Below the pieces are notes generated by a model. The model did no database searches. It was not told the origin of the DNA and worked only from the letters and a program-made list of their open reading frames with translations. The translations under genes were made by a program, and so were the position numbers. Positions 5,899 through 34,142 of a DNA stretch of 42,395 bases are shown here, one piece after another (the first letter of the stretch is position 1; each line of letters begins with the position of its first letter). The DNA comes from a virus. The stretch covers positions 1-42,395 of the IMG/VR virus record IMGVR_UViG_3300005613_000134, one strand, 5' to 3'.

Positions 5899-6850
5899 TA
5901 TCACCACTCTTACTAACTATCTTAACATTTACTATAAGATACAGAATCAAATAATTGTATGTTATAGACCTACACTAAAGAATAGTTGGGGAGATAGATG
6001 TTTATATTTAAGTAAAGAATATAACATCAGAAAGAAGTATAATCATAGAAGTATCCTAGAGAAAGAAATAGTGATTGAATTTGATGAAGATAGTAAGAAA
6101 CAAAATAGAATTAATGCTGATGTAGTTGTCAAAAGATTAAGAAAGTATAATATTAAATGTGCAAAATGGACAAGTGGTAACAAAAGTGTTCATGTACATT
6201 GCATGGTAGATACAAAAGGTGCTAAGAATATTCAATTACTAAAGATTACTTTTATGAGATTTTTTGGTATAGTATACAAAGATGCTAAAGGTAAGTATTA
6301 CTATGACAAAGAAGACATCCAGGGAAAAGAGGTGAAACAGGTTGTGCCAGACTTACGTTTAGCTGCGTCCAATCATTTAATTCGTGCAGAGTATGGTATT
6401 CATGAGAAGACAGAACAGTATAAACACTTGATAAGTAAAGATAAACAGTATCCTTGTATTAGTAGAATACCAACTATAGTTTGGGATAAGTATCGACAAG
6501 CAGTGGAAATAGTAATGAAAAGAAGACTAACAAGTGACTTAAATAAGTTAGATACTCTGCCTGGGTTTAAGTTTATATTACAGAGTGAAAGATTTAGAAT
6601 AAGTAATGATGGTAGAGAAAGAGCATTATTTATGTTGATTCATGTACTTAAACCTAAGTATGTAGAGAAGAGAGATGAACTAATAAACTTTTTACAGCAG
6701 TGGTATAGATATAGTGGTGGTACTAAACTTAGTGATATAGATATAGAAAGAAAAGTAATCTATCATTGGAAAAGAGAATATAAGTTTGGGTTGAATTATC
6801 TAAATAATTTATTAACAGAAATAGGAAGGGAGGATTTGATAGCAGAATGA
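5891..6850 (+). CDS. Archaeo-eukaryotic primase (AEP) catalytic subunit-like (319 aa)
   Basis: Makes RNA or DNA primers for the family A polymerase encoded downstream. Conserved AEP signatures are visible: EFDED (63-67, metal-binding acidic motif), SGNKSVHVH (95-103, the S-x-H-x-H motif), a third acidic site in VVPDLR (D154) and HLIRAEYGIHEKT (162-174), which matches the R-x-x-x-S/G-x-H-x-K-T nucleotide-binding motif. No zinc-binding stem is obvious. The conventional start is GTG 5891, but that GTG is itself part of a GGGGTGA Shine-Dalgarno; an AUC codon at 5900, in frame and 5 bases after GGTGA, may be the true start. Overlaps the upstream gene's stop. Confidence 0.85.
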   Translation: MNNITTLTNYLNIYYKIQNQIIVCYRPTLKNSWGDRCLYLSKEYNIRKKYNHRSILEKEIVIEFDEDSKKQNRINADVVVKRLRKYNIKCAKWTSGNKSVHVHCMVDTKGAKNIQLLKITFMRFFGIVYKDAKGKYYYDKEDIQGKEVKQVVPDLRLAASNHLIRAEYGIHEKTEQYKHLISKDKQYPCISRIPTIVWDKYRQAVEIVMKRRLTSDLNKLDTLPGFKFILQSERFRISNDGRERALFMLIHVLKPKYVEKRDELINFLQQWYRYSGGTKLSDIDIERKVIYHWKREYKFGLNYLNNLLTEIGREDLIAE

Positions 6851-8013: not shown

Positions 8014-8116
8014 TAAATTAGTAACAATAGTTTCAGATACTCAGATACATAATGTATACTGTATACCTAATAAAATAATGATTGATGGGAGGGAAATATG
8101 GATAAAGAAACACTAA
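7985..8116 (+). CDS. Small protein overlapping the polymerase start (43 aa)
   Basis: MMPILPGVNSKLVTIV is followed by a beta-like stretch (IHNVYCIPNKIMIDGREIW). It fills the only gap before the polymerase gene and runs 19 bases into it, so it could help couple translation. Support is weak (open frame, position). Confidence 0.35.
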   Translation: MMPILPGVNSKLVTIVSDTQIHNVYCIPNKIMIDGREIWIKKH

Positions 8117-10848
8117 CACATGCTGCAGATGTTAACAGATGGATGTTAGAACATAAGACAGATGTTATTTCCTTTGACACCGAAACTAGTGATTTACAGT
8201 ATTCAGTACTACAATTAGAAGGTATTAGTATTTGTAATGGAACATCCTCTTTATACATAGACTTATTTGAGAATCCAGAGTTTGATAGAATTATAGAATT
8301 ATTAAGATTATTTTTTAAGTCAGTCGAAATAGTTATAGGACATAATTTAGTATTTGATTTGAAAGTATTACATAAATATGGAATTGATTGTAATCATTGT
8401 CAGTTATATGATACAATGGTGGCAGATCATTTAATTGATGAGAACCGTAGGCATGGGTTAAAATTTCTTGCAGGGACTATACTTGGTGAAGAGACGATAG
8501 AGTATGAGAAGGCATCAGTAGATAAGCATTCAGAAACATTTTACAACTATGCACATAATGACACTATATGGACGTGGAGATTAATGCAGTATTCAAAGCC
8601 AAAGTTATGTGAACAGGGATTACTAGAGTTGTTCAGAAACATTGAGATGCCTTTTCTATTCTCTTTAGTAGAAGCTGCTACTGAAGGAGTATTAGTAGAT
8701 TTATACAAAGTAGAACAAACTACTATTAAACTACAAAAAGAAATAGAAGACCTTACTATAAAAATGTTAGATATATTACAAGAAGATTATGACTTACAAT
8801 TAGATCTAGAAGGACATAGTACAATAGTAAGTAGTATAAATTTTAATAGTAGTATTGATTTAGCTAAGATACTATTTGAGAAATTAAACTTACCAGTGAC
8901 TGAAACTACTCCTAGTGGGAAACCAAGTGTAGGTAAGAAAACATTATATAATCTTAAAGGACAACATGAGTTTGTTACATTATTAGAACAATATAAGATA
9001 GCACAGAAATTACTTTCAAGTTTTTTTCTACCCTTACCTGGGCTTGTTGAAGATGATGATAAAGTTAGACCTAATTTCTTAGATTGTGGGACAAAGACAG
9101 GAAGATTATCCTGTAATAATCCTAATCTTCAACAACTTCCCAGGGTTAATAAAACATTAGCATATGATACTAGAGAATGTTTTATAGCACCTAAAGGATA
9201 TAAAATGATAGCATGTGATTACTCTGGACAAGAACTAAGAGTATTAACAGAGATAACCAAAGATCCAGTATTAGTAAGTACATTTAATGAAGATAAAGAT
9301 ATGCATCTAGCAACAGCTAAAGATTTCTTTAACTTAGATATACCTAAGGAAGCATTACATACTACTCACCCAGATAATGAAAAATATAAGGAGATGTATA
9401 AAGACGAAAGAAACAAAGCAAAATGTTTTCACCCGAATACAGAAGTACTGACTAAAGAAGGATGGAAAAAGATAGTAGATATAACCACAGATACAGAAAT
9501 TATACAAGCAATACCAGAAAGAGGTTGGTGTAAATTAGAATGGGCTAACCCTATAGAAGTTTTCACCCAATATCACGATAGTAAGAAGCTTATTTCATTA
9601 GAAAATGAGGGTACTTCCTTACAAGTGACACCTGACCACAGGATGTTAGCTTTTAACCACAGGAGAGAGCACTATGTAACAACACCACAGGAGTTTGGAA
9701 AAGCAAGATACTGGTGTAATGCAGGGTATTTACCAAATGATAGACCTATTGACTTAACAGAACCGAACTTTATTAAATTAATTGTTGCTACACAAGCAGA
9801 TGGTAGTTATACAAAAACTAATATCAGATTTGGTTTTACTAAAGAAAGAAAAATAAAAAGAATGGATGCAATTCTTTCTTCATACCCTAAAACTCAATGG
9901 TCAAAAACAATACAAAAAAACATGACAACTTTTAGAATTGTTGGAAACTTATGTCAAAGAATTAAAAGAACACTACCAGAAAAAACTTTTGATTACTCTT
10001 TATTAGATTTAGGTTTTACCCAAATTGGTATCTTTATAAATGAATTAAAATACTGGGATAGCCACCAAAATAAATTTAAAAGAAGTTTTACTTATAGTAC
10101 CAAACAAGAAATAAATGCAGATGTTGTTCAATCACTATGTTCAGTTAATCAGAGAAAATCATATAAAAGATATAATGGAAAGTGTTGGGTGCTGTCTATT
10201 AAAGACCATGCAACATCTAGGGGAGAAAACTTAAAAATAAAAGAAGTTGAATTTACAGATAAGGTATCATGTTTATCAGTACCTTCAACTTTTGTATTGG
10301 TGAGATATAATGGGAAAACAACAATTACAGGACAAACAATTAACTTCGGAATTGCATATGGGAAAGGAGCTTTCGGATTTAGCAAAGACTTTGGAATCTC
10401 TGAGGAAGAAGCACAAGGTATTCTGGACAAATACTTCGGAGCTCTTCCAGGAGTCAAGAAAGCAATTGAAGACTGTGACAGACAAGTCAAAACAAAAGGA
10501 TTTGTTAGAAGTTTAACAGGAAGGTATAGAAGATTTCAAGCTAAGGAAGTAGATGGGTATAGTTTCTACCCTAAATCATCCTTTAGACAGGCATTTAACT
10601 TTCTTATTCAAGGTTATAGTGCTGATATGATTAGGATGGCTATTAATAAAGTTTATAAAGGGCTAAAAAAAGAGTGGGACTGTAAGCTTATTATGACTGT
10701 GCATGATGAAGCAGTTTATACAGTTAAAGAAGAGTATGCAAAGGATGCTGCTAAATATATCAAAGAAACATTTGAATCAGCAGTTGAGCTGTGTATACCA
10801 CTTAAAGCTGATGTTAGTATAGGCAAAACATACTCAGAGGTGAAATAA
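8098..10848 (+). CDS. polA: Family A DNA polymerase with 3'-5' exonuclease, interrupted by an intein (916 aa precursor)
   Basis: Replicative polymerase of the virus. The N-terminal DnaQ-like proofreading domain has FDTETSD (D27, E29), IGHNLVFDLKVL and YAHNDTIWTW (ExoI-III). The polymerase domain shows motif A ACDYSGQELRVL (D374; usual form DYSQIELR), motif B RNKAK...TINFGIAYG and motif C VHDEAV (H869, D870). An intein (residues 443-746) splits motif B between the catalytic Lys 442 and Thr 747; after splicing the enzyme would be 612 aa, normal for phage PolA without a 5' nuclease domain. GGGAGGG lies just before the ATG. The intein must splice for activity because it separates the O-helix residues. 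Confidence 0.95.
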   Translation: MDKETLTHAADVNRWMLEHKTDVISFDTETSDLQYSVLQLEGISICNGTSSLYIDLFENPEFDRIIELLRLFFKSVEIVIGHNLVFDLKVLHKYGIDCNHCQLYDTMVADHLIDENRRHGLKFLAGTILGEETIEYEKASVDKHSETFYNYAHNDTIWTWRLMQYSKPKLCEQGLLELFRNIEMPFLFSLVEAATEGVLVDLYKVEQTTIKLQKEIEDLTIKMLDILQEDYDLQLDLEGHSTIVSSINFNSSIDLAKILFEKLNLPVTETTPSGKPSVGKKTLYNLKGQHEFVTLLEQYKIAQKLLSSFFLPLPGLVEDDDKVRPNFLDCGTKTGRLSCNNPNLQQLPRVNKTLAYDTRECFIAPKGYKMIACDYSGQELRVLTEITKDPVLVSTFNEDKDMHLATAKDFFNLDIPKEALHTTHPDNEKYKEMYKDERNKAKCFHPNTEVLTKEGWKKIVDITTDTEIIQAIPERGWCKLEWANPIEVFTQYHDSKKLISLENEGTSLQVTPDHRMLAFNHRREHYVTTPQEFGKARYWCNAGYLPNDRPIDLTEPNFIKLIVATQADGSYTKTNIRFGFTKERKIKRMDAILSSYPKTQWSKTIQKNMTTFRIVGNLCQRIKRTLPEKTFDYSLLDLGFTQIGIFINELKYWDSHQNKFKRSFTYSTKQEINADVVQSLCSVNQRKSYKRYNGKCWVLSIKDHATSRGENLKIKEVEFTDKVSCLSVPSTFVLVRYNGKTTITGQTINFGIAYGKGAFGFSKDFGISEEEAQGILDKYFGALPGVKKAIEDCDRQVKTKGFVRSLTGRYRRFQAKEVDGYSFYPKSSFRQAFNFLIQGYSADMIRMAINKVYKGLKKEWDCKLIMTVHDEAVYTVKEEYAKDAAKYIKETFESAVELCIPLKADVSIGKTYSEVK
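9424..10335 (+). mobile_element. LAGLIDADG-type intein in the polymerase O-helix (304 aa)
   Basis: Starts with Cys (CFHPNTEVLTKEGW, block A), then VTPDHRML (block B with T-x-x-H), homing endonuclease motifs around ATQADGSYTK and FINELKYWDS, block F VSCLSVPSTFVLVRYNG and block G ending ITGQ before extein Thr. The extein joint is RNKAK/TINFG, the most conserved part of motif B. The last residue is Gln instead of the usual Asn, and no penultimate His is present. Gln-ending inteins are known, so splicing is plausible. Both LAGLIDADG-like blocks keep an acidic residue, so the endonuclease may be active. Confidence 0.9.
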
Positions 10849-11224: not shown

Positions 11225-11350
11225 ATGGAAGAAGATGTTATTAAGTTAGAACAAATGCAACAAGAGAAAGAAGCAATAGCTGCTGAAGCAGAAAGAGCTA
11301 TCAAATGTATAGCAGAACTTAAAGAGGTCTTAGCTAAATATGAGTACTAG
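11225..11350 (+). CDS. Small helical protein (41 aa)
   Basis: An uninterrupted acidic amphipathic helix (QEKEAIAAEAERAIKCI) likely to dimerise as a coiled coil. Sits one base after the zinc-ribbon gene and overlaps the start of the glycosyltransferase gene. No family recognised. Confidence 0.4.
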   Translation: MEEDVIKLEQMQQEKEAIAAEAERAIKCIAELKEVLAKYEY

Positions 11351-12158
11351 AGAATATATTATATGGTCACCCCCTTATACTCACACCAGTGGTGGTATAT
11401 CAGTTTTACACTACTTATGTCATTTGCTAAATGAGGGTGGCTATAGTGCTTATATTTCAAGTGCAGGGAATCCCTCTTGGAATGAGAAAGGAATAAGTAG
11501 GGTTGATCTTGATAAAAAGATGAAAGAAGGTGCTATTGCTGTCTATCCTGAGATAGTTAAAGGTAATCCGTATAACTCCCAAAGAGTTGTAAGGTGGGTA
11601 TTATACTTACCAGGGGTTATAGGTGGAGATAAAGAATATGATCCATCCGAAGCAGTGTTTTGTTATGATGCTAGGTTTTGTGATGCTGCTAAATCAGATA
11701 GATTGTTTGCAGTAGATATAGATGAATGTACAGAGTTTATTGATAAAGGTAATCCTAGAAAGGGAAACTTATTATGGGTAGGCAAAGGTAGAGATATGAA
11801 AAGAAGTGTTGTACAAGTACCAGTTAAAGAGATAACTTATGGAGAACCAAAGACTAGAGCAGAACTAGTTGATTGGTATAATGGTGCAGAGTTATTATAT
11901 AGTTTTGATAATATGACTAGAGTAATCAATGAAGCTAGATTATGTGGGTGTCCTGTAAGATTATATCCTAGACAAGGAGAAGAACTTAAACTACAACATA
12001 GTAAATATGGTATTGCTACTAATGATAATGAAATTCAGTTTGCTAAAGATACAGTACATATGTATAGAGAATATTATTTAGCATGGAGAGAATCGTTAGA
12101 AAAACAATTCTTAGATTTTGTTATGTTAACACAAGGTGATGAATTATGGCAAAGGTAA
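11340..12158 (+). CDS. Glycosyltransferase, GT-B fold (GT4-like) (272 aa)
   Basis: Likely transfers a sugar from a nucleotide donor. The N-terminal acceptor side shows the glycine-rich SGGISVLHYLCHLL typical of GT4 enzymes; the donor side has LLYSFDNMTRVINEARLCG, equivalent to the E-x7-E region that binds the nucleotide sugar. At 272 aa it is short for GT4 (usually 350-400). It opens a block of three glycosyltransferase genes that overlap or nearly touch. Virion or host surface glycosylation is the likely role. Confidence 0.75.
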   Translation: MSTREYIIWSPPYTHTSGGISVLHYLCHLLNEGGYSAYISSAGNPSWNEKGISRVDLDKKMKEGAIAVYPEIVKGNPYNSQRVVRWVLYLPGVIGGDKEYDPSEAVFCYDARFCDAAKSDRLFAVDIDECTEFIDKGNPRKGNLLWVGKGRDMKRSVVQVPVKEITYGEPKTRAELVDWYNGAELLYSFDNMTRVINEARLCGCPVRLYPRQGEELKLQHSKYGIATNDNEIQFAKDTVHMYREYYLAWRESLEKQFLDFVMLTQGDELWQR

Positions 12159-12787
12159 CTATTATTACAGCATATTATAATAAAGAAGAATTAACTTTAG
12201 AATGGTTAGATAATTTAGATAAAAATACTCCTTTAAATTGTGAAGTAATACTAGTAAACGCAGGAAGTAAACCTATTGAACATGGGTTTATTAGTAAACG
12301 TATTGACTTAGACCATAATGAAAGTTTTAGTAATTCAATGAATGCAGGGATTAGAGAAGCAACAGGAGATTATATTATTATAATGGGTAATGATACGTTT
12401 CCTCATGATCCTAACTGGGTAGATATTTTAATTAATTGTCAAAAAGAAACTAATGCAATGATAGTAGCACCTGATACAACTAGGCCAGGGTATAAAGCAT
12501 ATAGTCATATGATTAAAGATGGTCAAGAATATCATATGTTACCTGCTATATGTTGGTTATTACCAAAGAGTACTATAGACAAAGTAGGACTGTTTGATGA
12601 AAGATTCTTAATAGGATGTTATGAAGATAATGACTATTGTAAAAGAGTACAAAATGAAGAAGGTAAGATTGTATTATGTAATGATGTTATAGTAGAACAT
12701 AGATTAAGTCAAACAATGAATCAGTTTAATGTAGGAGAAGTAATGCAAACTAATAGACGTAAATTTTATGATAAATGGGGTGAATAA
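12146..12787 (+). CDS. Family 2 glycosyltransferase, GT-A fold (213 aa)
   Basis: Typical GT2 start VTIITAYYNKEELT, central NAGIREATGDYIIIMGNDT where the usual DxD metal site is replaced by an N-D-T, and a C-terminal CYEDNDYCKRV (catalytic-base-like ED). Soluble, with no membrane helix. Overlaps the preceding glycosyltransferase by 13 bases. Acceptor unknown; a surface glycan on virion proteins is a reasonable inference. Confidence 0.85.
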   Translation: MAKVTIITAYYNKEELTLEWLDNLDKNTPLNCEVILVNAGSKPIEHGFISKRIDLDHNESFSNSMNAGIREATGDYIIIMGNDTFPHDPNWVDILINCQKETNAMIVAPDTTRPGYKAYSHMIKDGQEYHMLPAICWLLPKSTIDKVGLFDERFLIGCYEDNDYCKRVQNEEGKIVLCNDVIVEHRLSQTMNQFNVGEVMQTNRRKFYDKWGE

Positions 12788-12788
12788 T

Positions 12789-13562
12789 ATGAGTAATGAA
12801 AAGATTGGATTAGCTGTAATTTCATATAATAGATTAGATTATTTAAAGAAATGTATTAAAGCATTAGATACTAATAACTGGGGTGGAGCTAAGTTAAGGA
12901 TCATAATTGATGACCATAGTAATACACCAGGATATATGACTTATCTTAAAGAACAAGAAAGAAAAGGTAAGATAGTTATAAGGAATAGAGAAAACTCAGG
13001 TGTAGCAGTGTCTAAGAATACTGCGTTAAAAATTATGATGAACCAAGGATGTGAACATCTATTCTTAATGGAAGATGATATACTAATGCAAATAAAAGAT
13101 ACTTGTACAATGTATATTGATTATGCTAAGAAACATAATTTACATCACCTTAACTTTGCATTGCATGGAGAGATGAATAAAGGTAAGAAGTTCTTATATA
13201 ACCATGAAATAACAGTTTATCCTCAGATAGTAGGTGCATTTAGTTACTACTCAAAGACAGCTATTGAAACAGTAGGACTAATGGATGAGAACTTTAAGAA
13301 TGCATGGGAACATGTAGAACATACATATAGAATGACATTAGCACAATTAACTACACCCTTCTGGCACTTTGCAGACCACCCTATTAGTGATATACTACTT
13401 AAAGAAATACCAGGGTCTATTGATACTAGTTCTATAAGACCTAGACCTGATTGGCAAAAGAATATTCAAGAAGGAAAGATGTACTGGATGGCTAAGCATG
13501 GTAGTTGGCTACCTAAGAAAGAAGAAGTAGAATTATATAATATAATAAAAAAAGAAAAATAA
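12789..13562 (+). CDS. Family 2 glycosyltransferase (257 aa)
   Basis: GT2 features: IGLAVISYNRLDYLKKCI, an RENSGVAVSKN segment and FLMEDDI as the DxD-like metal site. The start is taken as ATG 12789, which follows a GGGGTGA Shine-Dalgarno by about 5 bases; an upstream in-frame ATG at 12768 lies inside the previous gene. Last gene of the plus-strand unit, followed by a short hairpin at the convergence point. Confidence 0.85.
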   Translation: MSNEKIGLAVISYNRLDYLKKCIKALDTNNWGGAKLRIIIDDHSNTPGYMTYLKEQERKGKIVIRNRENSGVAVSKNTALKIMMNQGCEHLFLMEDDILMQIKDTCTMYIDYAKKHNLHHLNFALHGEMNKGKKFLYNHEITVYPQIVGAFSYYSKTAIETVGLMDENFKNAWEHVEHTYRMTLAQLTTPFWHFADHPISDILLKEIPGSIDTSSIRPRPDWQKNIQEGKMYWMAKHGSWLPKKEEVELYNIIKKEK

Positions 13563-20579: not shown

Positions 20580-21949
20580 TAGTTATTCCCCACATATGAT
20601 TGAATTATAGGACTATACATATTATCTGTATTTTGTTGATAAGGGTCTGCAGCAGTATAATAATTATCTCCATAGTTATTATATGTTGTTGCTGTGGTAG
20701 ATGTTGCTGTAGGTTTTCCTAAATTATTAGCAGTATCAATAATATTAGATAATGCTAAATCAAATTCTTTTCCTTTTTGTATAGATGCTGCTAGTCCTTG
20801 AGTAAAATCGTCTATAAACATTTTAGCATAGTTATTTTGGTCAAAAGTTAATCCTCTTGCATATTCATCTACTCTTTTATGCATTCCAGATGTATCAATT
20901 TTCATTAGCTCCATTAAAGGTTTAAATCCAGGAAGATGTCCTAAAGCCCAGATAATACCATCAACAATACCAGATACAACAGCTATCTTTAATGCATACT
21001 GTATAGTATCTCCAATAATTTTAGCTGTAGTTCGAAAAATAGCTGCAATGAATGCACCCACTATTCCAAATACTGTAAAAATTGATGTAAAAAATACTCC
21101 TTGGTCTATTAATTCTAATGCTACACCAATTGCTATTAATGCTCCACCACCTTTAGCTCCTTTTAGAACTTTAATTCCACCAATTAGTAATGCAGCCGAA
21201 GATAATGCGTTTATCATTCCTGAAAATACTTTACCTTCTTTAAAATCTTTAAAAGCATCCACTGCTTGAACTAATCCATAGCCTATTGAAATAAAACCTA
21301 TTCCTTTTTTGATTACTTCTCCTGTTCTAGCCCAATTCATGCCCTCAATTTTTCCTTGTTCCCCAAGAGCTACTATTCCTAATTTACCAAATAGATCAAT
21401 AAAACCATTAACTGCTAAGGCTGCTGCACCACCTATAGCAAAAACAGTACCTATTACTGTTCCTACAGCAACTATTCCAGCAAATAATTTTTCATTCCTC
21501 ATTATCCAATCTGTAATCATATCTATAATTGGGATAATATAAAATAATAAAGGTTCTAAGGCTGCTCCTGCAACAAACTGTAAATACTTTATACTGCCAC
21601 CTAGCATATCAAACTGAGTAACGGTACCTTCTACTGAATGCATAACATCATTAAATGTCTTTTGTGAATTTCTCCAAATACTAGAAAAAGCTCTTTGTAA
21701 TGCCATACCAAAGAACATTATTGACATAGCCCATCCTTGAAACGCCCTAGTACCTTGTTTCATTGACATACCCATTGTATTAACAGACTCTCCAGTTTTC
21801 TTTATAGAAGAATTTATTAACATATTAGCCTTGCCTACTGTAGTACTTGCCGATTTCATAACTGCATTAATTCTAGCTTTGGTTTTCTTCATATCAGCCA
21901 TGAATGTACCATTTACTAACTCCATATCAATTAGAATATCTGCTGTCAT
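20579..21949 (-). CDS. Tail tape measure protein (456 aa)
   Basis: Helical N-terminal third with many Lys/Met/Ser (KKTKARINAVMKSAS), several long hydrophobic segments (about residues 70-90, 130-180, 250-300) rich in Gly/Ala/Ile, and a low-complexity Thr/Tyr/Asn C-terminus (TATSTTATTYNNYG), as expected for a tape measure. From the usual 1.5 angstrom per residue the tail would be about 65-70 nm. It directly follows the two chaperone-like genes. No muramidase or peptidase domain is visible. Confidence 0.85.
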   Translation of the reverse strand: MTADILIDMELVNGTFMADMKKTKARINAVMKSASTTVGKANMLINSSIKKTGESVNTMGMSMKQGTRAFQGWAMSIMFFGMALQRAFSSIWRNSQKTFNDVMHSVEGTVTQFDMLGGSIKYLQFVAGAALEPLLFYIIPIIDMITDWIMRNEKLFAGIVAVGTVIGTVFAIGGAAALAVNGFIDLFGKLGIVALGEQGKIEGMNWARTGEVIKKGIGFISIGYGLVQAVDAFKDFKEGKVFSGMINALSSAALLIGGIKVLKGAKGGGALIAIGVALELIDQGVFFTSIFTVFGIVGAFIAAIFRTTAKIIGDTIQYALKIAVVSGIVDGIIWALGHLPGFKPLMELMKIDTSGMHKRVDEYARGLTFDQNNYAKMFIDDFTQGLAASIQKGKEFDLALSNIIDTANNLGKPTATSTTATTYNNYGDNYYTAADPYQQNTDNMYSPIIQSYVGNN

Positions 21950-22155
21950 TATCGTCTCCTCGCATTCTTTTTAATTTCGGCTTCTTCTTTTTCTCTAACA
22001 TAGTTGAATGTTTTTAAAATAGACATAATATAAGGTATTGGTAATTTATTAAATTCTTCTAAAGTTACACCTTTTTCCCAAAAGACATAATATACTATCT
22101 CTATATGAGAAGGTATATTTGACTTATCAACTAAACAGTCTAAGTCTAGCTTCAT
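21949..22155 (-). CDS. Second tail assembly chaperone-like ORF (68 aa)
   Basis: A short helical protein between the first chaperone-like gene and the tape measure, the classical place of the GT-type partner. Begins at an ATGA overlap with the upstream gene and shares one base with the tape measure start. The frame differs from the upstream gene; I see no slippery heptamer at the junction, so coupled re-initiation is more likely than a programmed shift. Confidence 0.65.
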   Translation of the reverse strand: MKLDLDCLVDKSNIPSHIEIVYYVFWEKGVTLEEFNKLPIPYIMSILKTFNYVREKEEAEIKKNARRR

Positions 22156-22490
22156 TTCTTAGTTATCACGTCTGTTTGCATATTTACTTGCATTAAAGGT
22201 TCAAAGAGTTGTAATAGGTTTTGTGATACAAACTCTTCAAGTTTTTCTACATTTTCGTTAGGATAACTTTTTTTAAATGTCTCTAATAACAATTCATGTA
22301 ATTTTGTTATTGAGTCTTCGTCTAGTAGTTTAAATGCTGCTGAACTAGTCTTATCTTTTTCATCCATATTTTCAAATTTGTTTATAATTGCATATAATTT
22401 AGGTAAGAATCTACCACTTAGTGGTCTAAGTTTATATGTTAATTCTCCTACTTTTACTTCTTTTGTATATATTTCGAACATCTCGGACAT
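22152..22490 (-). CDS. Tail assembly chaperone-like protein (112 aa)
   Basis: Pattern EVKVGELTYKLRPLSGRF, then a helical body (FKLLDEDSITKLHELLLETF), resembles the first tail assembly chaperone of siphoviruses, which binds the tape measure during tail building. Location one gene before the tape measure supports this. No membrane or catalytic features. Confidence 0.65.
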   Translation of the reverse strand: MSEMFEIYTKEVKVGELTYKLRPLSGRFLPKLYAIINKFENMDEKDKTSSAAFKLLDEDSITKLHELLLETFKKSYPNENVEKLEEFVSQNLLQLFEPLMQVNMQTDVITKK

Positions 22491-22492
22491 GT

Positions 22493-22951
22493 CTATTCAC
22501 CTTCTTTTATTTTTATCAATTCATCCAACTTAAGTATGTTTTTATGTGCTAATCTGTGACAATTAGGGCATAAACAAATTAAGTTATCTTCTTTGTTCTG
22601 TCCCCCTATTCCAAGAGGGATAATATGGTGAAGATCTACTGTAGATTGATTCCAACCACAAACTTCACAATATTTAATTTCTCTTTTATACTGATTTAAT
22701 TTAGCATGAAAACCTTTTCTCAAATTAGGTTTAATTTTTTGTAGTATATTTCCTTTTCTTGTTTTTAGACCTAAAGTAGCTATTCTCTTATTCACGTAGG
22801 AATGACTTAAACCAGTCAGTTCAGCTATTTTCTTCTGAGTGTATACTTTCCTAGTATAATAATGTATAATTAAATCATCTGTTAATACTTCTTTACATCT
22901 TTTAGCTTTGTCTGCATTAGACTTAAGTAGATTCTTAGTACCTTGATTAAT
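22493..22951 (-). CDS. HTH-HNH homing endonuclease with apparent AUU start (152 aa)
   Basis: The C-terminal HNH fold is clear: CEVCGW, VDLHHIIPLGIGGQNKEDN, CPNCHRLAH (two CxxC plus the catalytic His). Upstream in the same frame are 52 residues that read as a DNA-binding helix-turn-helix (YTQKKIAELTGLSHSYVNKR). A standard start exists only at GTG 22795, which would cut off that domain. An AUU codon at 22951 lies 7 bases after GGGGTG and would give a complete protein. Alternatively the preceding gene shifts +1 at its stop (GTG TTT TGA). It appears to be an inserted homing nuclease in the tail operon. Confidence 0.75.
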   Translation of the reverse strand: MNQGTKNLLKSNADKAKRCKEVLTDDLIIHYYTRKVYTQKKIAELTGLSHSYVNKRIATLGLKTRKGNILQKIKPNLRKGFHAKLNQYKREIKYCEVCGWNQSTVDLHHIIPLGIGGQNKEDNLICLCPNCHRLAHKNILKLDELIKIKEGE

Positions 22952-22952
22952 T

Positions 22953-23270
22953 TCAAAACACCCCTTCGTCTTCTTCTTTATTTTCTTTCTTTACTGGTTC
23001 TTTTAGTTTTTCTTCTAAGCTTAGGACTCTATCTTCTAGAGTTTTCATATGTTCCCAAACAGCTTCAAACTTAGCATCACCGTCTGCTATTTCTAATAAT
23101 CTTTTAAGTCCTAGAGTATAATTATCATCACTCTCAAACTTACAGAACTCTTTAAATGCTTTATGTACTATTTCATTTTCTTTAGTATCAGTAGCTTTTA
23201 TACTAAATCGTATAAATCCTGATGCTAAGTCTTTCAATCCTTTATGTACGTCTGTACCCACTTCTGTCAT
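22953..23270 (-). CDS. Hypothetical protein in the tail module (105 aa)
   Basis: Helical body containing KEFCKFESDDNYTLGLKRLL and a C-terminal coiled coil (LEDRVLSLEEKLKEP) with a charged tail. It sits after the major tail protein, where other siphoviruses encode chaperones. Of two in-frame ATGs (23276, 23270) the second is 7 bases from AGGTGA and preferred. Its stop context GGGGTG TTT TGA resembles a +1 frameshift site leading into the HTH-HNH frame. Confidence 0.65.
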   Translation of the reverse strand: MTEVGTDVHKGLKDLASGFIRFSIKATDTKENEIVHKAFKEFCKFESDDNYTLGLKRLLEIADGDAKFEAVWEHMKTLEDRVLSLEEKLKEPVKKENKEEDEGVF

Positions 23271-23283
23271 GTTCATTTCACCT

Positions 23284-24759: not shown

Positions 24760-24795
24760 GATAATAAGTGCCTAAGCAAAGATGGGTCTATACCC

Positions 24796-25164
24796 TTAAG
24801 ATTGGTCCTTGACCATACGAATGATTGTAACTACATTGTCAGGAAGATAATTAGGATTAATATCCTTAACATCATAAGTATCTCCTTCCATAATAATCTT
24901 ATCTCCTACGTTAACAGTGACTGTATAAGGAACAGCAGCATCAGTTTCACCTTCTTGTATATCACCAAAAGGTTCATATGCTTGTCTGTCTGCTATGAGG
25001 TTGTAAGGAATTAAGGTAATGGAGGTATTTGTAAAAGTTTGAGATTCTTCTTCCCCTCTAGTATTATATACTGGTGTGGATTTACTTTTAAGGGTAACCG
25101 TTTTACCTATTACACCAAAGAGTTCAGACTGTAAATCACTCCGTATTTCGTCTTGTATTGCGAT
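24796..25164 (-). CDS. Head-closure protein candidate with apparent AUC start (122 aa)
   Basis: This frame is open from a TGA at 25171-25173 to the TAA at 24796-24798 and has no ATG, GTG or TTG for the first 98 codons, yet it reads as a good protein: AIQDEIRSDLQSELFGVIGK, VTLKSKSTPVYNTRG, YTVTVNVGDKIIMEGDTYDV, ending IIRMVKDQS. GAGGTGA sits 6 bases before an AUC at 25164, the spacing used by normal genes here. The small beta-barrel-like layout and position between the connector and the tail terminator fit a gp16/stopper head-closure protein. Without it there would be a 400-base hole in a packed operon. Confidence 0.65.
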   Translation of the reverse strand: MAIQDEIRSDLQSELFGVIGKTVTLKSKSTPVYNTRGEEESQTFTNTSITLIPYNLIADRQAYEPFGDIQEGETDAAVPYTVTVNVGDKIIMEGDTYDVKDINPNYLPDNVVTIIRMVKDQS

Positions 25165-25175
25165 TTTCTTTCACC

Positions 25176-27517: not shown

Positions 27518-30436
27518 TTACTCCAAGTTAAATCTATATCCACCTGAATCAGCTGTTATCACTGAAGAGTTAATCCACCTCTCACACCATATTAATACTT
27601 GTTCATCTGCATCTACTGGGTTCTTAAATTCTTGATATGTTGTACTTAAGTTTATACCGTTAGATCCATAAGCAGTATGATAACATCTATCTGTTTTATT
27701 TTCATTAACTTCTGTAATCTTCATACTTAAGTTACCTGAACTTGTTCCTGTATTTGTAATATTAATAAGACATTGGCTTCCTGTTTGTCCTGTAGCATTT
27801 ACTACTTGTGGGTCAGCAAATGTAGGAGGATCATTATCTAATATAATATGGTCATAATCTATACTTGTAATACCATTACAATATCCTGCAGACATAGAAA
27901 TAGCTGAATTATAATTAATAGCTTCTGTTTGTGTATGATTCATAACAACACCATTATATGTTGCATTTAAGAACAAATCAACTAATCCTGTTCCACTTGG
28001 TACTGTTACATTAATTTGCCAAAAAGAACCATCAAAACCAAACTCAGCTTCAGTTCCTTGTGTACATCCTGCGTCTGAACAATTTGTATCACATTCATCT
28101 AATGAACAGGAAGAACAAGAACCAGCTTCAACTGCATTACAAGTTTCTCCTATTATATCAAAACTTAAATCATCATTATCATGATAATTAGATACTGCAC
28201 AACTATTATCAGCACCATAATAATCAGCTATACATCTTGCATAATATGTTCCAGTTGCAGAAGTATCCGTAATGGTAACACTAACATTTTCATCTGCTGA
28301 ATTAGCACAATTATCTGAAATTAACTGTTCCCATGTAGTATTTGGGTATCTTACCCATAATTCATATTCAGTACTACCTGAATAACATCCAATATAACAA
28401 GATAATTTTACATCATCATTTACTACTGCTGTCGTAATATTAAGATAAGAATTATCTACATAACCATATCCTGAGTAAGTCCCCCAGGAATCACAATCAT
28501 CTATCGTATTATCTCCATCATCTGGAGTAGCTGAACAATCACTGCTCCAATAAGTATCACAATCTATTGCAGTATAATCTGGAGAAGCAACTCCCCAACT
28601 ACATTGACTACAATTATTACAGGTTGATTCTACAGAATAACCTGAACAATCTAGTGTTCCAGAACAAACATTATTTGATAATATACTAGCTAATGAACTA
28701 TCTATAGTAACGTTATCTATAGTTACACCAGAAGTAACATTAACATCATTATAAATTACACTAAAATTTATTGATATATCATCATCTGTAGCAACATCTA
28801 AAGATGACGCTGTAGTAGGACCAACAATATAAAGAGTATAATTCTCTGAAAAGAATATTGAATAATTATTAAACCATACATTATTAGCATCTTCATAAAT
28901 ATAATTAACAACATCAGTCATCCCAGCAAATGATGGATAATATTGATCTGCTAATCTAGGACTACCTGCAGTAGCTGTCATTTCTGTTCTAGCATCAAAT
29001 GTAACCCCATCAGTTGAGTTACTTCTATAAACTTCTCCAGAATCTGTCTGTTGTTCACCATATAGTATTTGTATATTATTATTTAGATTTACTCCTAATG
29101 ATGCAGAGAAACTTGCACTACTATCAACTGTGGTACATGACCAAGTAGTAGGTGTATCTACAGTTGAATTACATAATATTAAATCCGCATCAACAACAAA
29201 GTTAATAAATATTTTTTCTATATTATCTATTACTTCTATTTGCATAGAAATTTCGTTTCCAGTTGTATATGTTCCACCATCATATACTTCTATTCTATTA
29301 CTATCTCCCCATCCAGTATCACTAGTCCATATATCTAAATCATCTTGGTCAGAACCAATACCAGCTATCCATATTACACCATTACTATCTACAACAATAT
29401 CAGCTTGGTCGGTATCATCTCCTGTGTTTGTATTTATATCTATTAATGTAGTAAAGTCAGTTTCATTAATATAATATAAAATATCATTATAATCATCTCT
29501 TAGAACACAATGCATAAAATCATTTTTATCTACTACACAGAATGGTTCTGCATAGTTTTCATAAAAACCTCCTGATTGTACAGTTTGTACACTACCCCAA
29601 TTATCTCCACCATCTGTACTATTAATTATATATATCTTATATAAATAAGAAGAAGCAATAAATAAATTATCGTTTTCTCTACAAACTATATTTGTATCTC
29701 TATAACCAACTGTTGAAAGTTCTGTTAAATCCCATGTAGCACCACCATCAGCACTGTTTCCATACCATAGATCTTGACCACTATCAACATAAACTATGTT
29801 TAAATTTCCGTCTTCACTCATACATATTTTTTCTGCTCCACCATATAATGTATTTGCAGTACCACCACTACTAACAACTTGTGTGGAACTTTCTCCTATA
29901 GATAACCTAAATTCTTTTGTTCCGTCTGGTACAGTGAAATATATACCTTTAGAAATATCTTTTTTTGTTAACTTCTCTTTAAGAATTGTAAGCTTTCCAC
30001 TTACATTTAATATTACTTTAAATTTATAATCTAATTTATTAACTTTGGTTTCATTATATATAGAAGCAAATAAAATGAAATCAGTATTAGATAATTGTTC
30101 TATTTCAACTGATAATTCATCTTGTTTAATAACTGTCGTTTCAAACGTAATTCCACCTACTGCAATAAACCCTGGTATATGTTTATTCTTCATCTTAAGA
30201 TATTCAGCTTCTTGAAAAGTTTCTTTAATCTTTTTTTTATCCTGTTTATCCCAATCAGTTTTAGATATATCAGTTAAATTTTGAACATAGTTTTCTTTGA
30301 GAATAATACTATTAAAATCTGTACTTCCAGTATTTCCTGGAGGATTATCTGGATGTAAGATGTCTGTATAAGATACAGCACCTAGACATACCAGTAATAC
30401 TGCTACAAGAATCCCTAATATACTCTTCCATTCCAT
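27518..30436 (-). CDS. Large membrane-anchored surface protein with Asp-box and Cys-rich domains (972 aa)
   Basis: The N-terminus is a signal anchor (WKSILGILVAVLLVCLGAV). Residues about 195-500 hold sialidase-type Asp boxes: SADGGATW (228-235), STDGGDNW (273-280), STDGVTF (474-480), suggesting a beta propeller. Residues about 590-800 are Cys-rich (CSGTLDC, CNNCSQCSW, CSSCSLDECDTNC), then an Ig-like end (LFLNATYNGVVMN). More than twenty N-x-S/T sequons are present. The style is like DPANN-archaeal surface proteins. Candidate receptor-binding or glycan-acting protein; a virion protein with a signal anchor is unusual. Confidence 0.75.
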   Translation of the reverse strand: MEWKSILGILVAVLLVCLGAVSYTDILHPDNPPGNTGSTDFNSIILKENYVQNLTDISKTDWDKQDKKKIKETFQEAEYLKMKNKHIPGFIAVGGITFETTVIKQDELSVEIEQLSNTDFILFASIYNETKVNKLDYKFKVILNVSGKLTILKEKLTKKDISKGIYFTVPDGTKEFRLSIGESSTQVVSSGGTANTLYGGAEKICMSEDGNLNIVYVDSGQDLWYGNSADGGATWDLTELSTVGYRDTNIVCRENDNLFIASSYLYKIYIINSTDGGDNWGSVQTVQSGGFYENYAEPFCVVDKNDFMHCVLRDDYNDILYYINETDFTTLIDINTNTGDDTDQADIVVDSNGVIWIAGIGSDQDDLDIWTSDTGWGDSNRIEVYDGGTYTTGNEISMQIEVIDNIEKIFINFVVDADLILCNSTVDTPTTWSCTTVDSSASFSASLGVNLNNNIQILYGEQQTDSGEVYRSNSTDGVTFDARTEMTATAGSPRLADQYYPSFAGMTDVVNYIYEDANNVWFNNYSIFFSENYTLYIVGPTTASSLDVATDDDISINFSVIYNDVNVTSGVTIDNVTIDSSLASILSNNVCSGTLDCSGYSVESTCNNCSQCSWGVASPDYTAIDCDTYWSSDCSATPDDGDNTIDDCDSWGTYSGYGYVDNSYLNITTAVVNDDVKLSCYIGCYSGSTEYELWVRYPNTTWEQLISDNCANSADENVSVTITDTSATGTYYARCIADYYGADNSCAVSNYHDNDDLSFDIIGETCNAVEAGSCSSCSLDECDTNCSDAGCTQGTEAEFGFDGSFWQINVTVPSGTGLVDLFLNATYNGVVMNHTQTEAINYNSAISMSAGYCNGITSIDYDHIILDNDPPTFADPQVVNATGQTGSQCLINITNTGTSSGNLSMKITEVNENKTDRCYHTAYGSNGINLSTTYQEFKNPVDADEQVLIWCERWINSSVITADSGGYRFNLE

Positions 30437-33437: not shown

Positions 33438-34142
33438 TCATCTATCTTTCACATCTAACCAATCACTGTTCTTGTGGTCACAGATAACATCTGTATCTAC
33501 AAAAGCAGGAATGTTCCCCCTAAACAAATCATTAAAAAAATATATATCACTATGACCTTTAAACCTTGGATCATAGTTGAACCTAATTTTTTTGAAAACA
33601 TCTTTATGTATTAATGCACAACCAAACCCACCAGCAGCAACCCTTTTAATTCCTTGGTTTCTATATTCAGGAAATTCTTCTGGACTTAATAATCTTGTTC
33701 CAAAGGCTTTTAGTGTCTCACTCCATTGTGGTAATGTTATGCATGGAATTAATCCTTTGAATTGTTTTTGTCCTATGAAATATAATCCAGTGATTACATT
33801 TTTTCCACTTGACATTAACTTTTGTATTATGTTTGTCGGAGGAAATATATCACTTTCCAAGGAAAATAAATAATCGTAACCTTCTTTAATCGCCATATCC
33901 CTGGCAAAATTCTGTGACCTAGCAAGTGCTTCCCTGGAATTATTACCTCGTTCAACTCGGTATACTTCAAGGTCTAGTTTTTTTAATCTTTGATAATACT
34001 TTCCACCATCATCTGTATTATCAATATAGATATGCCTTTTATTAGGATATGTTAGTTTGTTTGAAGATTCAATAAAATCTTTCAGACAATAATCCTTTTG
34101 GTCATATGTAATTGTAAATATTAATACTTTCGGTAAGCTCAT
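33438..34142 (-). CDS. Glycosyltransferase-like protein (GT2/GT-A) in the head module (234 aa)
   Basis: PKVLIFTITYDQKDYCL is a GT-A nucleotide-binding start; NFARDMAIKEGYDYLFSLES and DIFPP give the DxD-like metal site (ESD); KRVAAGGFGCALIHKDVF and HSDIYFFND form the acceptor side. It is placed between the protease-like and scaffold genes, not with the other three glycosyltransferases. Modification of capsid or decoration proteins is the natural inference. Confidence 0.75.
   Translation of the reverse strand: MSLPKVLIFTITYDQKDYCLKDFIESSNKLTYPNKRHIYIDNTDDGGKYYQRLKKLDLEVYRVERGNNSREALARSQNFARDMAIKEGYDYLFSLESDIFPPTNIIQKLMSSGKNVITGLYFIGQKQFKGLIPCITLPQWSETLKAFGTRLLSPEEFPEYRNQGIKRVAAGGFGCALIHKDVFKKIRFNYDPRFKGHSDIYFFNDLFRGNIPAFVDTDVICDHKNSDWLDVKDR

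Follow-up and report, generated by a model that had tools for sequence, protein, structure and literature searches.

The window analysed here is the whole of IMG/VR record IMGVR_UViG_3300005613_000134 (42.4 kb), which belongs to a tailed virus and carries its head, connector and tail genes (i.e., terminase, portal, capsid, adaptor and tail terminator). Within the tail operon, on the minus strand, lies an open reading frame (ORF) for an HTH-HNH endonuclease (22493..22951), with a 107-aa gene on one side and a 112-aa gene on the other. The frame opens at 22990, 13 codons before ATT 22951, closes with a stop at 22493 and contains no ATG at all. Standard starts appear only from GTG 22795 onwards, with TTG codons following at 22723, 22528 and 22519. 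The preliminary description of this DNA had counted 52 codons upstream of GTG 22795, which is exact, and had called that codon the only standard start, which overlooks the three TTGs further in.

The preceding tail-module gene (22953..23276, minus strand) can be read from ATG 23276 (107 aa) or from ATG 23270 (105 aa), and SD spacing favours the SD-led ATG 23270. Its 3' end contains the Shine-Dalgarno sequence (SD) GGGGTG (22959..22964, minus strand), with a duplex energy of -8.9 kcal/mol, 7 nt before ATT 22951. On the minus strand the junction reads GAA GGG GTG TTT TGA for the preceding gene, followed by A ATT AAT CAA GGT for the HTH-HNH frame, so that both the gene end and the 7-nt distance are as first described. 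The ATT (22949..22951, minus strand), proposed as an AUU start codon, stands 1 nt after the upstream TGA at the spacing of GGTG-led starts and would open an ORF of 152 codons. The same junction holds a candidate +1 slip site, TTT TGA (22953..22958, minus strand), which is followed by A and not by C.

The protein has a secure HNH domain, matching PF01844 with E=6e-10 and 39.5 bits (cut-off 21.4), and its CxxC and LHHI...N...CPNCH motifs can be read directly. The 52-codon extension between 22951 and 22795 looks like coding sequence: it scores +0.15 bits/codon compared to -0.42 +/- 0.31 for off-frame windows, a value reached by 4.9% of off-frame windows, with 10.6% of in-frame windows equally low, and the other five frames of this stretch all score negative. 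A helix-turn-helix had been called convincing in this extension. The two matches to HTH families (Pfam HTH_24, E=0.008; HTH_23, E=0.04) are weak and fall below the Pfam cut-offs, and the HTH is here a putative one. A single-sequence AlphaFold2 model places helices where an HTH would have them, at residues 3-34, 39-46 and 50-59 with a pLDDT of ~71-82 over residues 11-60, in a model that is poor as a whole (mean 63). Residues 2-63 can be aligned, at 35% identity, to the HTH at the N-terminus of an HNH endonuclease from Bacillus phage 015DV002 (MW419086), which is encoded in an interrupted nrdE. As in our protein, the HTH of the Bacillus phage enzyme lies close to the start; it differs in having an ordinary ATG with AAGGAGG and in its C-terminal part, which does not align to our HNH. 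HNH matches elsewhere have only the HNH core in common with the HTH-HNH protein and are therefore uninformative on the conservation of its N-terminus. We infer that the protein is a homing endonuclease; searches of viral_contigs returned no relative that covers the tail region and has an empty site for its gene.

The starts of this virus were listed, picking each by its SD. The list comprises 67 ATG, 2 ATC, 1 ATT, 1 TTG and no GTG. GGTG-led starts keep an SD-start spacing of 6, 7 or 8 nt, apart from two starts at 5 and 1 nt, and GGGGTG itself also leads ATG 5200 (8 nt) and ATG 12789 (6 nt). Duplexes of -8 kcal/mol or better occur at only ~1% of all positions. Among tight SD-led junctions, 21 of 25 have the SD before or within the upstream stop, and the 1-nt gap after the previous stop seen at ATT 22951 is common to many neighbours, including ATG-started ones. 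The sole non-ATG start of the NTG type in the list is that of the exonuclease gene, TTG 2958 (plus strand), with an in-frame ATT at 2955 directly before it; ATT 2955 was dropped as a start, since TTG 2958 has the spacing usual for this virus (8 nt vs 5).

Scanning the window for SD-led near-cognate codons yielded two further cases, both with ATC. The first falls in the gap 24760-25175, which contains a 122-codon ORF (24796..25164, minus strand) beginning with ATC 25164 behind GAGGTGAAAGAAA; the SD, GAGGTGA, has a duplex energy of -11.5 kcal/mol. From ATC 25164 the frame runs for 91 codons before it meets an ATG, and has no GTG or TTG over that length either. The product matches phrog_161 (Hc1) with E=3.5e-5, residues 4-106 of 122 aligning to profile positions 4-105, and it is flanked by a gene matching adaptor phrog_442 (7e-14) and one weakly matching tail terminator phrog_347 (0.0036). 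A profile match over most of the length together with adaptor and tail-terminator flanks identifies it as a head-closure gene of the Hc1-like family PHROG 161. An in-frame TGA at 25173-25171, two codons upstream of ATC 25164, means that no simple frameshift could fuse this ORF to the gene before it.

The second case is a primase-like ORF (5900..6850, plus strand; weak primase match, E=0.028), which probably starts at ATC 5900 behind GGGGTGAATAAT (-10.9 kcal/mol). This 12-nt leader is identical to that of ATG 12789, and both codons stand 1 nt after a TAA. The mechanical ORF list starts this gene at GTG 5891, a codon that is itself part of the SD and is a possible alternative start. Other SD-led near-cognate codons returned by the scan were set aside, since they fall deep within longer genes or have an SD-led ATG next to them.

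The AUU and AUC candidates all have a strong SD at the usual spacing and no SD-led AUG, GUG or UUG nearby. One mechanical filter was applied to this virus and to controls. It returns three SD-led AUY ORFs against 21 SD-led ATG ORFs in the virus; in five annotated AT-rich phages the numbers are 0 and 125, and over the controls as a whole (496 kb) they are 2 and 189. The corresponding Fisher p-values, 0.004 against the five annotated phages and 0.011 against all controls, are descriptive only, because the filter was refined after the candidates had been seen: its first version excluded every ORF that overlapped a longer one, 25164 among them, and the second was relaxed with 25164 already known.

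Relatives were sought in viral_contigs. None were detected for the proteins of the preceding tail-module gene (22953..23276), the tail tube, a tail protein, the terminase, the primase-like ORF or the head-closure ORF. A capsid search returned two 9-kb relatives, L033 and L034, with ~70% identical capsids and a shared head gene order. Both contigs reach only the head genes, ending just past the capsid, and within these head genes no SD-led near-cognate start was found. The terminase large-subunit gene of L033 (1509-3179) contains one in-frame TAA, which is either an error or a mutation.

For the HTH-HNH gene, AUU initiation is the most likely reading and is favoured over the RF2-like +1 programmed frameshift that the preliminary description had offered beside it. 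In the latter, UUU UGA A would slip to UUU and be read on as GAA AUU, the +1 shift on TTT (22955) yielding a tail-module/HTH-HNH fusion of ~258-260 aa. Such a shift keeps a small probability because UUU to UUU slippage is chemically possible, with pairing again perfect in the +1 frame. In its favour, GGGG stands 2 nt ahead of the P-site codon and UGA occupies the A site. An SD-like G run and an NUU-UGA slip are also what likens the site to the prfB (RF2) cassette. The spacing in E. coli prfB is 3 nt, however, and here the SD is explained by the start of the next gene: an SD ahead of the upstream stop is the usual arrangement in this virus (21/25) and is thus no pointer to an RF2-like site, while the +1 relation of the two frames follows from the 1-nt intergenic gap. 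The base after UGA is A, whereas in RF2 genes it is nearly always C (PMC5009743), and no stable 3' structure that could act as a frameshift stimulator is present downstream of TTT TGA (z=0.47). Although tail genes of Listeria phages PSA, A118 and A500 (PMC5009743) and of SPP1 (PMC6316719) are known to undergo +1 shifts at their ends, the shift proposed here would fuse the nuclease to an unrelated protein and would leave the ATC-started head-closure ORF, which is out of reach of a simple frameshift, unexplained. Taken together, these observations make the frameshift quite unlikely, and they speak for AUU initiation, with an SD at normal spacing and a recurrence as one of three SD-led AUY starts.

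Homing nucleases are dispensable and their genes are often degenerate, so the gene might instead be decaying, with a former ATG mutated to ATT, the SD left as a relic and the nuclease poorly or not expressed. ATT is indeed one base from ATG and the SD is intact; but so are the ORF and the HNH motif, and the same change occurs at the head-closure gene, which the virus should be unable to do without, making decay unlikely. An error of sequencing or assembly at the start codon(s) is conceivable in a single metagenomic contig, all the more as the related L033 has its TAA inside the terminase gene. Three chance cases would nevertheless need ~6% substitutions, with ~137 premature stops, and none of the window's genes looks broken. 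Given this, the probability that random change made at least three such start codons is ~4e-5, an estimate that assumes unselected random substitutions and stays compatible with an error in one of the three codons; we regard random error as very unlikely. Finally, the real product could be the 100-aa HNH part from GTG 22795, the frame upstream being open by chance. GTG is a common alternative start, yet GTG 22795 has no SD (score +0.8) and would leave a gap of 157 nt in a tightly packed operon, and the extension dropped in this way scores as coding and matches HTH; we judge this start highly improbable.

AUU initiation would accordingly make the HTH-HNH gene a separate cistron led by its own SD. 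This arrangement, with AUC used at 25164 and probably at 5900, is the likely one, and we infer that the AUU and AUC codons are in actual use with a throttled output. The ORFs, the SDs, their spacing, their recurrence and the lack of better starts were all read from one metagenomic contig. Ribosomes would bind GGGGTG in the last codons of the preceding gene, either fresh or re-initiating after UGA, and those finishing the preceding gene may aid initiation. The strong SD would hold the 30S subunit at a fixed distance over AUU or AUC, compensating for the weak start-codon pairing, and the initiator tRNA would start with methionine at reduced efficiency. The predicted product would be ~152 aa long and carry the HTH at its N-terminus and the HNH nuclease at its C-terminus. 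The same route, with AUC, could serve the head-closure gene (25164) and probably the primase-like gene (5900). Low output would suit proteins of which few copies are required or an excess does harm, such as a nuclease, a few-copy connector ring and a primase-like protein.

Initiation at AUN codons is itself already known. AUU and AUA starts behind an extended SD in S. aureus reach ~10% of the output of AUG, up to 30% in one case (PMC13009471). The S. aureus genes cvfC1 (AUU) and ccpN, citZ and infC (AUA) resemble our candidates in having a near-cognate AUN behind a strong SD, with a lowered output known there; they differ in being genes of a single cellular genome whose starts profiling has confirmed, whereas ours are three candidates in one virus, AUC included. 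The E. coli genes infC and pcnB, as cited in PMC13009471 and PMC2268962, also initiate at AUU, which limits their expression; they are isolated regulatory cases, in contrast to the virion structural gene and nuclease gene considered here. Across 36 groups of related prokaryote genomes, only 1 of 61,358 ancestral AUG starts had changed to AUU, compared to 363 to GUG and 113 to UUG (PMC5622118). Since switches to AUU are this rare, it is unusual for one small genome to have three AUY starts. No report of AUU or AUC starts in phage genes was found among open-licence papers, and the wider literature may hold some.

The start list, with three AUY, one UUG and no GUG, reverses the usual prokaryotic order. 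On this basis we tentatively raise the possibility, doubtful as it is, that the virus, and perhaps its host, relaxes the third position of the start codon (AUN) and not the first (NUG), with AUY setting the output of selected genes.

Common gene finders seek ATG, GTG and TTG. Read in this way, the HNH gene was trimmed to its C-terminal part and the head-closure gene was left unlisted. Should AUU and AUC starts prove genuine and recur in some viruses, virome annotation would be missing structural genes as well as nuclease domains, and SD-anchored near-cognate starts would offer a testable route to phage protein stoichiometry within a packed operon.

Several other features of the window were noted. 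Just before the probable tape-measure gene, ORFs of 112 aa and 68 aa (21949-22490, minus strand) overlap by ATGA; they are possibly a tail assembly chaperone pair, and show no family match. A 972-aa protein (27518-30436, minus strand) has a signal-like N-terminus, many N-x-S/T motifs and cysteines, and no family match, features that might hint at an archaeal host. The DNA polymerase A gene (8098-10848, plus strand) is split by an intein, the intein N-terminal splicing model matching residues 443-517. Glycosyltransferase-like genes with matches to Glycos_transf_2 and Anp1 are found at 11340-13562 and 33438-34142.
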